Shown here: positions 31,005 through 58,122 of the stretch, one piece after another
How positions within the stretch are numbered: position 1 is the stretch's first letter
How the letters are laid out: each line of letters opens with the position of its first letter
Origin: Thermus scotoductus DSM 8553
GTDB lineage: Bacteria > Deinococcota > Deinococci > Deinococcales > Thermaceae
DNA: 64,000 nucleotides
Assembly: GCF_000381045.1 (NCBI RefSeq)
Contig: NZ_KB905732.1
Coordinates: 33,966 to 97,965, forward strand
Direction: 5' to 3'
Position numbers and translations under genes: made by a program
Notes under the pieces: model-generated
What the model was told of the DNA's origin: nothing
The model's input: only the letters and a program-made list of their open reading frames with translations
Databases searched by the model: none

Positions 31005-31217
31005 ATGGAGGCTTTTGGTCTTCTCATCCTTTCGGGCCTGGCCCTATTACTCGCCTACCGGTTGCGGCAAGCCTCTCCCCAGGCCCGTTGCCCCCGATGC
31101 CACCTGCCCAAAGCCCTGGCGGAGGAGGTGGCCCGGTACCGGCGTCACTGCCCCCAGGTGGCCGTGAGAGCCTGCCCCTTCGACCCCAGAAGGGGTGTCT
31201 ACCGCCTGCGCCGATGA
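31005..31217 (+). CDS. Small membrane protein with Cys cluster
   Basis: A 70-residue protein: one N-terminal membrane helix (LLILSGLALLLAYRL, about 6-20) and a soluble part with four Cys (CPRC near 29-32, then two single Cys near 49 and 57) that could hold zinc. No known family recognised. It has its own leaderless-type promoter and its stop overlaps the ATG of the YkgJ-like gene, so the two Cys-rich proteins are co-expressed. Confidence 0.7.
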   Translation: MEAFGLLILSGLALLLAYRLRQASPQARCPRCHLPKALAEEVARYRRHCPQVAVRACPFDPRRGVYRLRR

Positions 31218-31822
31218 ACCCGGTGGAAGCCCATTGGCTGGCCCTCGAGGCGGACTTGGCCGACTACCTGGCCAAGAAGGGGATTACCCCCTCCTGCCGC
31301 GCGGGATGCTTTGCCTGCTGCCATGGCCTGGTGACCCTTTCCCGCCTGGAAGGGGAAGCCCTTCTTCCCCACCTCAGCGAGGCCCAGTGCTCCAGGCTCC
31401 TTAAGGAAGGCCCTAGGCGGCTTGCCCTTCTCAGGGAAGGCAAGGACGACCCCCACTTCCCAAGCCAGTTCTTTCTAACCCGCACCCCCTGCCCCTTTCT
31501 GGAAGAGGGCCTCTGCGGTGTCTATCCCTGGCGTCCGCTTGCCTGCCGGGGGCTTCTCACCCAAGGCGACCCGAGGCTTTGCGAACCCGAGGCGGGCTTG
31601 CAACGGGGCCATTTCCTTTCCGCTCCCTGGCGCATGGCCCGCCTGCGCATGGAGGCGGTTTGGGAGGAGGAAAAAAGGCGGTACGGCTTCCTGGTCCTGG
31701 GGGAGCTGGCCACCCTTTTGTACCTGCTTCTTTCCGGGTTTCCCGGGGAAAGGAAGGAGGCGGAAACCCTCCTGGAGGCGCTGGGGATCCTCGGGGGGCG
31801 GTGGGGGTTCCAGGTGGTATAA
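31214..31822 (+). CDS. YkgJ-type Cys-cluster protein
   Basis: A 202-residue member of the YkgJ/UPF0153 family. The cluster motif is visible as CRAGCFACCHG near residues 29-39, TPCPFLEEGLCGVYPWRPLACRGL near 94-117, typical of a family thought to bind zinc or an Fe-S centre through eight Cys. Function unknown. ATG 31214 overlaps the stop of the small membrane Cys protein. A hairpin that could end both this and the opposing tRNA transcript follows. Confidence 0.8.
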   Translation: MNPVEAHWLALEADLADYLAKKGITPSCRAGCFACCHGLVTLSRLEGEALLPHLSEAQCSRLLKEGPRRLALLREGKDDPHFPSQFFLTRTPCPFLEEGLCGVYPWRPLACRGLLTQGDPRLCEPEAGLQRGHFLSAPWRMARLRMEAVWEEEKRRYGFLVLGELATLLYLLLSGFPGERKEAETLLEALGILGGRWGFQVV

Positions 31823-31840
31823 AAGCGGCCCTCAGGCCGC
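31821..31840 (-). terminator. Bidirectional hairpin between ykgJ-like gene and tRNA-Ser
   Basis: GCGGCC (31825-31830) and GGCCGC (31835-31840) pair with a 4-base loop. On the minus strand TTTT follows, so it suits the tilS-tadA/tRNA-Ser transcript; on the plus strand only CTTT follows. Confidence 0.6.
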
Positions 31841-31843
31841 CTT

Positions 31844-31935
31844 TGGCGGAGGGGGCGGGATTCGAACCCGCGAGACCCCTTGGGGGGCCTACCGGTTTTC
31901 GAGACCGGCCCGTTCAACCGCTCCGGCACCCCTCC
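31844..31935 (-). tRNA. tRNA-Ser (CGA)
   Basis: A 92-base class II tRNA with encoded CCA. The acceptor stem GGAGGGG/CCCCTCC, anticodon loop CTCGAAA, long variable arm with GCCCCCCAAGGGG, and T-arm GGGTTCGAATCCC are clear. It decodes UCG. Its first 22 bases are also the last codons of the tilS-tadA fusion, whose TGA falls in the D-arm. Confidence 0.95.
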
Positions 31936-33458
31936 CTGAGCCGGGCAAAGAAACCCTTTAGGAGCTTAGCACACTCCCCTTCCAGGACGCCACCCCTGAG
32001 GCCTTCCCCCTGGCCGAACCGGGTCAAGGCCCCTTCCTTCAGGTTCTCCACCCCGTAGACCACCTCCACCCCCGCCTCCCGAAGGGCATGGTGGCACATG
32101 CGACACGGCTCCAGGGTCACGTAAAGCCTTCCTCCCCGGGCCCCCCGGCCCACCTCCCTAAGGAGGAGCATCTCCGCATGGGCCGTAGGATCCCGGGTAG
32201 CCTCCACCTGGTTGTGAGCCCTGTACACCCTTTCCCCCACCACCAAGACCGCCCCCACCGGCACCTCCCCCTCCTGGAAGGCCTGCCTGGCCTCCTCGAG
32301 GGCCAAGGCCATGTACCGCTCCTCCTCGGAAGGGGGATAAAGGCCCAAGACCTCCACCACCCGCTTACCCTCCGCCCTCACCGGCCAAAGGGGCTTGAGC
32401 TCCTTAGGCACCCCTTTCTCCGCCAAAAAGTCCACCAGGCGCTTTCTCCCGTAGGGCATGGCCAGGTAGTCCCCCGGCAAGGGGCGGCGGAACCCGGGGG
32501 GAAGGGGCAGCCGGGGCTCGGGGGGAAGGAGGAAAAGGGTACCTCCCTTGCGCCTGGCCGTGTAGCCGCCGGGCAGGGTGGCCACCTTGCCCCCTAAAGC
32601 CTCCTCCAAAAGGGCGATAAGCCGGGCCTCAGGCCGGAGGTCCAAGGCCTCCAGTATCCAGCGCAAAGCCCTCCGTCTAAGGACCCCGGGAGCCTCCAAA
32701 AGGGGTGCCGCCCGGTAGGCAGGCACGAAGAAGCGGGGATCGGGCAGGAGACGAGCCCTAGCCTCCCTCTCCAGGTGGGCCTCCTCCTCCATCCGCACCT
32801 GGGCAAAGCGGGAAAGCGCCTCCTTGGCCCCGGGGAACCGCTCCTCCACAAGGGGAAGCACCTTAAGCCTCAGGTAGTTGCGATCCCGGGAAAGGTCCTG
32901 GTTGGAGGGATCCTCCCGCCACGCTTCCCCCAGGGCCTTTAGGTACGCCCTTAACTCCTCGCGGCGAAAGGCCAGAAGGGGGCGGACCACAAGCCCCTCC
33001 TTCTCCCGGATGCCCAGACCCCGGGCCGTGCCCTGGAGAAGCTTTAAAAGTACCGTTTCCGCCTGGTCGTCCAGGGTATGGGCGGTGAGGATGGCCTTGG
33101 CCTTCACCTCCCTGGCCACCCGGTGCAGAAAGGCGTAGCGGATCTCCCTGGCCACCGCCTCGAGGTTCTCCCTCCGTTCCCTAGCCACCCTGGCCACCTC
33201 CACCCGCTCGGCGTAGAAGGGATAGCCAAGCCTTTCCGCCAGGGCCTTCACAAAGAGGAGATCCCCCCCGCTTTCCGGGCGCAGAGCGTGGTCCAGATGG
33301 GCCACCACCCCCTCCCGCCCAGCCCGCTTCACCAGGTGGGCCAGGGCCACGGAATCCCCGCCCCCCGAGACCGCCAGCACCAAAGGGCCCCGGGGTGCAA
33401 GCCGGGCCAGGCGCTTCTGGAAAGCCTCCTCCAATTCCTGCGGGAAGCCCTCAGGCAA
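31914..33458 (-). CDS. tilS: TilS-TadA fusion: tRNA-Ile lysidine synthetase + tRNA adenosine deaminase
   Basis: One 514-residue frame joins two tRNA wobble-base enzymes. Residues 1-370 are TilS: PP-loop SGGGDS at 31-36, AHLDHALRPES, and a C-terminal domain with KRLVDFLAEKGVP. Residues from about 378 are TadA: HAEM near 426 (zinc His and proton-shuttle Glu) and PCRMC near 450-454 (zinc Cys pair). TilS makes lysidine-34 in tRNA-Ile(CAU); TadA makes inosine-34 in tRNA-Arg(ACG). TTG 33458 has GGAGGT eight bases upstream and overlaps the preceding gene by eight bases. The last 22 bases overlap tRNA-Ser, and no internal stop or start signal separates the domains. Confidence 0.92.
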   Translation of the reverse strand: MPEGFPQELEEAFQKRLARLAPRGPLVLAVSGGGDSVALAHLVKRAGREGVVAHLDHALRPESGGDLLFVKALAERLGYPFYAERVEVARVARERRENLEAVAREIRYAFLHRVAREVKAKAILTAHTLDDQAETVLLKLLQGTARGLGIREKEGLVVRPLLAFRREELRAYLKALGEAWREDPSNQDLSRDRNYLRLKVLPLVEERFPGAKEALSRFAQVRMEEEAHLEREARARLLPDPRFFVPAYRAAPLLEAPGVLRRRALRWILEALDLRPEARLIALLEEALGGKVATLPGGYTARRKGGTLFLLPPEPRLPLPPGFRRPLPGDYLAMPYGRKRLVDFLAEKGVPKELKPLWPVRAEGKRVVEVLGLYPPSEEERYMALALEEARQAFQEGEVPVGAVLVVGERVYRAHNQVEATRDPTAHAEMLLLREVGRGARGGRLYVTLEPCRMCHHALREAGVEVVYGVENLKEGALTRFGQGEGLRGGVLEGECAKLLKGFFARLREGCRSG

Positions 33459-33843
33459 GCCTGGCCACCTCCGCCTTCAAGGTAGCAAGGCAGCAACGCC
33501 CCCTGGGGTTGCGCTGGTCGCAGGCGCATCGCCTGGCCCTGACCCCCTCCTCCACCTGGGCCACCGGATCCACCCCTTGCCCCAGGGCCTCCACCAATCC
33601 CTCCCGGGTCCAGTCAAAGCAGTAGCAGACGAGGGAGGCTCCCTTGTCGTAGATGGGGAAACGCACCTCCCCCAGGGTGTACACGCCTTCCTCCCCGTAG
33701 TAGACCACCGGGCAGGCGGGATCCTGGCAAAGGTAGTGGGGGCTAGCGGGGTTAAGCCGCATCAGGGCCCTTCCCGTGAGGAAGTTCTTCACCGTCTTCA
33801 AGGGCACCTCGAGGCCTACTCTTCCATTCTGCGGGCAGAGCAT
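33451..33843 (-). CDS. CopZ-N-like Fe-S/zinc protein
   Basis: A 130-residue Cys-rich protein resembling the N-terminal [2Fe-2S]/zinc domain of archaeal-type CopZ metallochaperones but without the heavy-metal HMA domain. Landmarks are VPLKTVKNFL, CQDPACPVVYYG, the FPIYDKGASLVCYCFDWT segment and a C-terminal RCACDQRNPRGRCC. Metal delivery or cluster handling is an inference. ATG 33843 is preceded directly by GGAGGT, too close for use as a normal binding site, so it may be leaderless (GATAAA eight bases upstream). Divergent from the CDGSH gene and overlapping tilS-tadA. Confidence 0.7.
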   Translation of the reverse strand: MLCPQNGRVGLEVPLKTVKNFLTGRALMRLNPASPHYLCQDPACPVVYYGEEGVYTLGEVRFPIYDKGASLVCYCFDWTREGLVEALGQGVDPVAQVEEGVRARRCACDQRNPRGRCCLATLKAEVARLA

Positions 33844-58045: not shown

Positions 58046-58122
58046 GGGCCGTTAGCTCAATCGGTCAGAGCGGCCGGCTCATAACCGGTTGGTTGCAGGT
58101 TCAAGTCCTGCACGGCCCACCA
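58046..58122 (+). tRNA. tRNA with CAU anticodon, probably tRNA-Ile2
   Basis: A 77-base tRNA with encoded CCA: acceptor GGGCCGT/ACGGCCC, D-arm TTAGCTCAATCGGTCAGAGC, anticodon loop CTCATAA, T-arm GCAGGTTCAAGTCCTGC. CAU reads Met unless C34 becomes lysidine. The TTGG-TTGC variable-to-T-stem region and the C4-G69, C5-G68 acceptor pairs resemble the TilS substrate tRNA-Ile2, not elongator tRNA-Met. TACAAT at 58027-58032 is a likely -10 box. Confidence 0.9.

Follow-up and report, generated by a model that had tools for sequence, protein, structure and literature searches.

A gene for a probable bifunctional wobble-34 enzyme, TilS-TadA, that in Thermus ends inside a tRNA-Ser(CGA) gene

Does a reading frame that joins TilS and TadA, two enzymes acting on position 34 of tRNA, encode a single working protein, and what follows from the fact that in Thermus the same frame runs into a tRNA gene? 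The question arose from a preliminary description of a 64,000-nucleotide stretch of DNA from Thermus scotoductus DSM 8553 (the whole of this stretch is called the window here). We consider it highly probable that the product is a bifunctional wobble-34 enzyme whose gene, in Thermus, is nested with that of tRNA-Ser(CGA). The features of the gene and of its immediate upstream neighbour are as follows.

31914..33458, minus strand: tilS-tadA fusion gene, 514 codons, TTG start and TGA stop (profile matches and relatives)
32334..33458, minus strand: TilS part, residues 1-375, with PP-loop catalytic domain, CTD1 and CTD2 (TIGR02432, PF01171 and alignment of the AlphaFold2 model to 1ni5 and 3a2k)
31929..32333, minus strand: TadA part, residues 376-510, with HAE and PCxxC zinc-deaminase motifs (PF00383 and alignment of the AlphaFold2 model to 7cph)
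33451..33843, minus strand: upstream gene for a zf_CopZ domain protein of 130 residues, with an 8-nucleotide overlap with the start of tilS-tadA

In the reading of the window ORFs, the frame is single and unbroken from the TTG at 33458 to the TGA at 31916-31914 on the minus strand, a strand that the preliminary description had left unstated. At the TTG start the Shine-Dalgarno match is strong (-14.3 kcal/mol), and the closest relatives have the same TTG. The zf_CopZ domain gene and tilS-tadA probably form one operon.

Both parts of the protein are recognised by profiles. The TilS part matches TIGR02432 (157.8 bits, cut-off 93.6) and PF01171 (149.5 bits, cut-off 27), the profile matches lying at residues 26-202, and the TadA part matches PF00383 over residues 377-468 (78 bits, cut-off 25). 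Against NF008113, a profile of E. coli-type TadA that appears tuned to such proteins, it scores below the cut-off (80.8 bits over residues 378-509, cut-off 150), which speaks against the assignment. Sequence matches of the fusion in the PDB are first to TilS (3a2k, 1wy5 and 1ni5) and then to TadA (1wwr, 7cph and 2b3j). The preliminary description had stated that all catalytic motifs are present and this was borne out: in an alignment of 48 relatives, the TilS residues S31-G-G-x-D35-S36 (that is, S31, G32, G33, D35 and S36) and H127/D131 are invariant, as are the TadA residues H427/E429 and C452/C455.

An AlphaFold2 model of the fusion, calculated as a single chain with the alignment of 48 relatives, has a mean pLDDT of 93.0 and a pTM of 0.80. 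The part matched by TilS structures extends to residue 375 and that matched by TadA structures begins near residue 376, so that there is almost no linker between the two parts. 3a2k and 1ni5 cover the catalytic domain, CTD1 and CTD2 (residues 8/9-375, Z 25, with an rmsd of 6.3 A over this multi-domain chain), while B. subtilis TadA (7cph) aligns over 135 residues with a Z of 22.2, 1.6 A and 42% identity. When deaminases are ranked against the model, TadA is highest (Z 20-22) and guanosine deaminases, cytosine deaminases and RibD are lower (17-19). The C-terminus is disordered in the model, with a pLDDT below 50 for residues 512-514 and a mean of 44 for the last block.

The fusion is not a peculiarity of one strain. 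Of 111 genomes in a phylum-wide search, 99 had a match (83 of the 85 of good quality), and every family seen was among them. Both parts lie in one frame in 69 of the 70 loci read, and these 69 cover each of the five families encountered in the order; one of these loci (L060) carries a motif variant missed by the script pattern and was accepted as fused from the alignment. Because all the relatives searched fell in the same order, the fusion is at least order-wide. From this mapping of sequences across the order, the fusion is ancient, and the continuous frame, the two profile matches above cut-off and the 69 fused loci together uphold the original description of a 514-residue fused protein. 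Chance is excluded as the origin of a frame kept in so many loci.

The exception is genome G021 (locus L055), in which the frame is broken at the junction within a C-rich run and the TadA frame continues behind the break. This genome is only 87% complete and the break is probably an assembly indel; a recent natural split would also be possible. Conversely, the broken frame might be taken as a sign that the single frame is the error, produced by an assembly that joined two genes. This has a negligible chance of being correct: the loci that carry the fusion come from many independent assemblies, which rules out an artefact as its source, and the incompleteness of G021 and the position of its break point instead to an error in that genome.

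According to the preliminary description, the genes for TilS and TadA lie side by side in some bacteria. Among the best 80 of 589 loci from a named genome collection, both domains occur only in two, from Thermus and Meiothermus; TilS alone was found in 71 and TadA alone in seven, within 1.5-kb flanks. The 78 loci outside the phylum therefore gave no neighbours within these flanks, although rarer cases may exist elsewhere.

What might the two parts do together? The substrates of both appear to be present in the genome. The tRNA scan found one gene for tRNA-Arg(ACG), the TadA substrate, and also one for tRNA-Arg(CCG). There are two CAU tRNAs, one of which lies in the window:

58046..58122, plus strand: CAU tRNA, called Met(CAU) by ARAGORN, with acceptor stem GGGCCGT including C4 and C5

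C4 and C5 of the acceptor stem are determinants for TilS, and to judge from its sequence this tRNA is probably tRNA-Ile2, the TilS substrate, and not a tRNA-Met. Neither tRNA-fMet nor tRNA-Ile(GAT) was found among the 44 distinct tRNA genes of the genome, probably due to assembly gaps. No second TilS or TadA was found in the genome. The only other deaminase match (G000:C2:105585-106010) is RibD and was ruled out as a second TadA.

The TilS part would convert C34 of tRNA-Ile2(CAU) to lysidine and the TadA part would convert A34 of tRNA-Arg(ACG) to inosine. An earlier suggestion was that the fusion could couple AUA and CGN decoding or share tRNA handling. Coupling on one tRNA is impossible: no single tRNA carries both C34 and A34, and the same molecule can therefore not be modified twice by the fusion. 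Coupling may take the remaining forms of co-production or shared tRNA binding. Codon use in 38 window ORFs (27.8 CGC against 1.35 AUA per 1000 codons) shows that CGC is common and AUA rare, and demand for the two products therefore differs about 20-fold by this measure. The rarity of AUA could also be read as a sign that the TilS part is no longer active, or active only within narrower limits, and is kept for a role in tRNA handling for TadA. We consider this very improbable: its P-loop and active-site residues are invariant in the 48 relatives, and the genome has a tRNA-Ile2-like gene and yielded no second TilS.

The most straightforward interpretation is that one polypeptide carries two enzymes that act independently of each other and are probably made in a fixed ratio. 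Like free TadA, the fusion would dimerise via its TadA part, beside which the C-terminal domains of TilS would be packed. We infer that both activities are retained, that the protein dimerises and that it is not cleaved.

The preliminary description had named an internal start producing TadA alone as evidence that would speak against the fusion. There is one candidate for such a start.

32310..32327, minus strand: candidate internal TadA start, GAGGAGG at 8 nucleotides before ATG-383

Its anti-Shine-Dalgarno energy is -11.6 kcal/mol here, and values of -9 kcal/mol or lower occur at this ATG in 23 of 24 Thermus genes compared with 12% of window ATGs. ATG-383 also lies near the start of a free TadA in the structure alignment. 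Two products can thus be envisaged, the full-length fusion and a free TadA that pairs with the TadA of the fusion and shifts the balance from lysidine synthetase towards deaminase; the higher inosine demand expected from codon use would fit. However, GAGGAGG is what a GC-rich genome would be expected to use for the amino acids EEER, and Met-383 is conserved for protein reasons. The motif is absent in one locus (L048) and weak in most other genera, all of which keep the fusion. In addition, there is no extra synonymous constraint at codons 376-384 of the Thermus genes (difference 0.07 against a mean of 0.18). The strong Shine-Dalgarno match would allow separate production of TadA, but we regard a second product as unlikely. 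The same comparison of Thermus genes gave raised synonymous conservation over 30 codons inside tilS (codons 102-131, window 33155-33066, minus strand; p about 0.006 for the maximum), for which no cause was found.

The highest synonymous constraint lies elsewhere, at codons 506-514 and 500-514 (the peak was reached in none of 2000 permutations). This is the end of the gene, which it shares with a tRNA, a feature that the preliminary description did not mention.

31844..31936, minus strand: tRNA-Ser(CGA) gene (ARAGORN), with mature G1 probably at 31935
31914..31935, minus strand: overlap of tilS-tadA and tRNA-Ser(CGA), comprising the third base of codon 508, codons 509-514 and the UGA stop

Taking G1 at 31935, the last 22 nucleotides of tilS-tadA are nucleotides 1-22 of tRNA-Ser(CGA), and the UGA stop codon belongs to its D-loop, GGUUGAA. 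Codons 508-514 are invariant in all 24 Thermus-group genes, and the tRNA gene covers the codons for residues 512-514, which are disordered in the model. The tRNA scan found only this one gene for tRNA-Ser(CGA) in the genome. In folds of the tRNA and of the tRNA plus leader, the cloverleaf is not the minimum free energy structure.

All Thermus genomes in which the frame is intact have the overlap, and it is found again in two further groups. An adjacent tRNA-Ser(CGA) was found in 49 loci, of which 32 have the 22-nucleotide overlap (24 Thermus including G073, together with G075, G052 and six members of genus g18) and one an overlap of 47 nucleotides. In the latter, Thermus G004 (L054), the frame does not end at the D-loop UGA but continues for 47 nucleotides into the tRNA, as far as a TAG. 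In 15 loci the tRNA does not overlap and lies 3-167 nucleotides downstream. The tRNA is also next door in the frameshifted G021. It is not adjacent in 21 of the 70 loci read, from families f2, f3 and f5. Mapped on the protein tree, the overlap requires three changes, or two at the minimum, and all loci with the tRNA adjacent lie on one side of a branch. The overlap is either ancestral with losses or was gained more than once. As to other tRNAs, three of the 44 distinct genes of the genome (Glu-CTC, Thr-TGT and Val-GAC) have an open frame of at least 100 codons running into their 5' end. Two of these frames cross upstream tRNA genes of a cluster, and we think that all three are spurious.

How, then, is the tRNA expressed? 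Comparison of relatives revealed a putative promoter inside tadA, and a hairpin lies behind the tRNA.

31963..31971, minus strand: extended -10 TGCTAAGCT of the putative tRNA-Ser promoter inside tadA, codons 496-499, conserved in sequence and spacing
31987..31992, minus strand: candidate -35, TGGCGT, 18 nucleotides upstream of the -10 hexamer; weak, and TGGACG in relatives
31821..31844, minus strand: terminator-like hairpin immediately behind the 3' end of the tRNA, 10 bp, -16 kcal/mol

The distance from TGCTAAGCT to G1 is 27 nucleotides in the Thermus genomes other than G004, where it is 23. In relatives the -10 is TGCTAAACT, TGCTATGCT, TGCTAGACT or TGCTAAAGT, with TGGACG 18 nucleotides upstream. 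In several genomes of genus g16 that have no overlap, the same -10 element lies between the end of the gene and the tRNA and is accompanied by GTGACA or GTGACT at 17 nucleotides. The pattern TGnTAnnnT occurs upstream of 14 of the 44 tRNA genes of the genome compared with 0.9% of random 70-nucleotide segments. Codon choice was examined in a set of 24 genes (23 Thermus and G075). GGT-489, in the candidate -35, is fixed in all of them (GGT is 4% of Gly codons), as are TGT-496 (10% of Cys) and GCT-497 (6% of Ala), and codon 500 is CTA or TTA in 22 of the 24 (together 5% of Leu). A scan for consensus sigma-70 promoters gave no match because it demands 9 of 12 positions; the extended -10 came from the comparison. 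On these patterns of conservation, a promoter for tRNA-Ser(CGA) is likely to lie within codons 489-500 of tadA, and most of the tRNA should come from it. The hairpin, which the terminator pattern scan did not detect, would probably end both the tilS-tadA and the tRNA transcripts. A putative CxxCxxCC metal-chelating protein is encoded on the plus strand at 31214-31822, convergent to the tRNA, and its end abuts the hairpin, which may serve as terminator for both sides.

A long transcript that covers both genes would meet one of two fates, full translation or cutting by RNase P. Since the stop and the tRNA share bases, RNase P cleavage at G1 would leave a message without a stop codon, and a ribosome at the UGA would keep the 5' half of the tRNA from folding. 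It is conceivable that this is a switch between mutually exclusive fates, in which the long transcript serves either as mRNA for the two wobble-modifying enzymes or as tRNA, thereby balancing the supply of tRNA and modifiers: translation to the UGA would unfold the tRNA and block RNase P, while RNase P would produce a non-stop mRNA. The position of the stop codon inside the tRNA, the retention of the overlap throughout Thermus and its recurrence in two other lineages are consistent with this. Yet with what appears to be a promoter inside tadA, the tRNA could be supplied independently of the long transcript; moreover, the overlap can be accounted for by genome compaction and is missing in close relatives. 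We therefore think such a switch improbable. The conflict may instead be harmless, as the tRNA seems to have its own promoter.

We found no description or functional study of the TilS-TadA fusion in the literature searched, nor, in a search made largely without subscription journals, any description of the overlap of coding sequence and tRNA seen here. The fusion itself is likely to be known, though little studied, and is probably already annotated: the Deinococcus radiodurans annotation 'MesJ / cytosine deaminase-related protein' presumably refers to the same fusion. It brings together two enzymes whose functions are usually considered separately, and its order-wide occurrence offers a natural way to ask whether fusion of two wobble-34 enzymes alters either activity. 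The Thermus locus is a conserved, compact case in which coding sequence, tRNA promoter, tRNA 5' half and stop codon fall on the same bases. The conflict between translation and RNase P is directly testable in this genetically tractable genus. There is also a practical aspect, in that gene callers that forbid overlap of coding sequences with tRNAs would place the end of tilS-tadA wrongly.

TilS proteins with both CTD1 and CTD2 are classed as type I (PMC12514573), for example those of G. kaustophilus (3a2k) and E. coli (1ni5). The Thermus protein shares with these the PP-loop motif, the catalytic residues, both C-terminal domains and the fold over residues 8-375, but TadA follows directly after CTD2. 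Compared with TadA of B. subtilis (7cph), A. aeolicus (1wwr) and S. aureus (2b3j), the HAE and PCxxC site is the same and the fold agrees to 1.6-1.7 A with 38-42% identity; unlike these free enzymes, it is attached to TilS, and in Thermus a tRNA gene supplies the codons for its last residues. The TilS/HprT fusion of Listeria, of which we found no mention in the literature searched, also has another enzyme behind TilS, but the partner there is an enzyme of purine salvage and not a tRNA enzyme. Bacterial mRNA-tRNA operons likewise place a protein gene and a tRNA in one transcript processed by RNase P. The Thermus arrangement differs from these in that the stop codon lies inside the tRNA, and cleavage would destroy the message.
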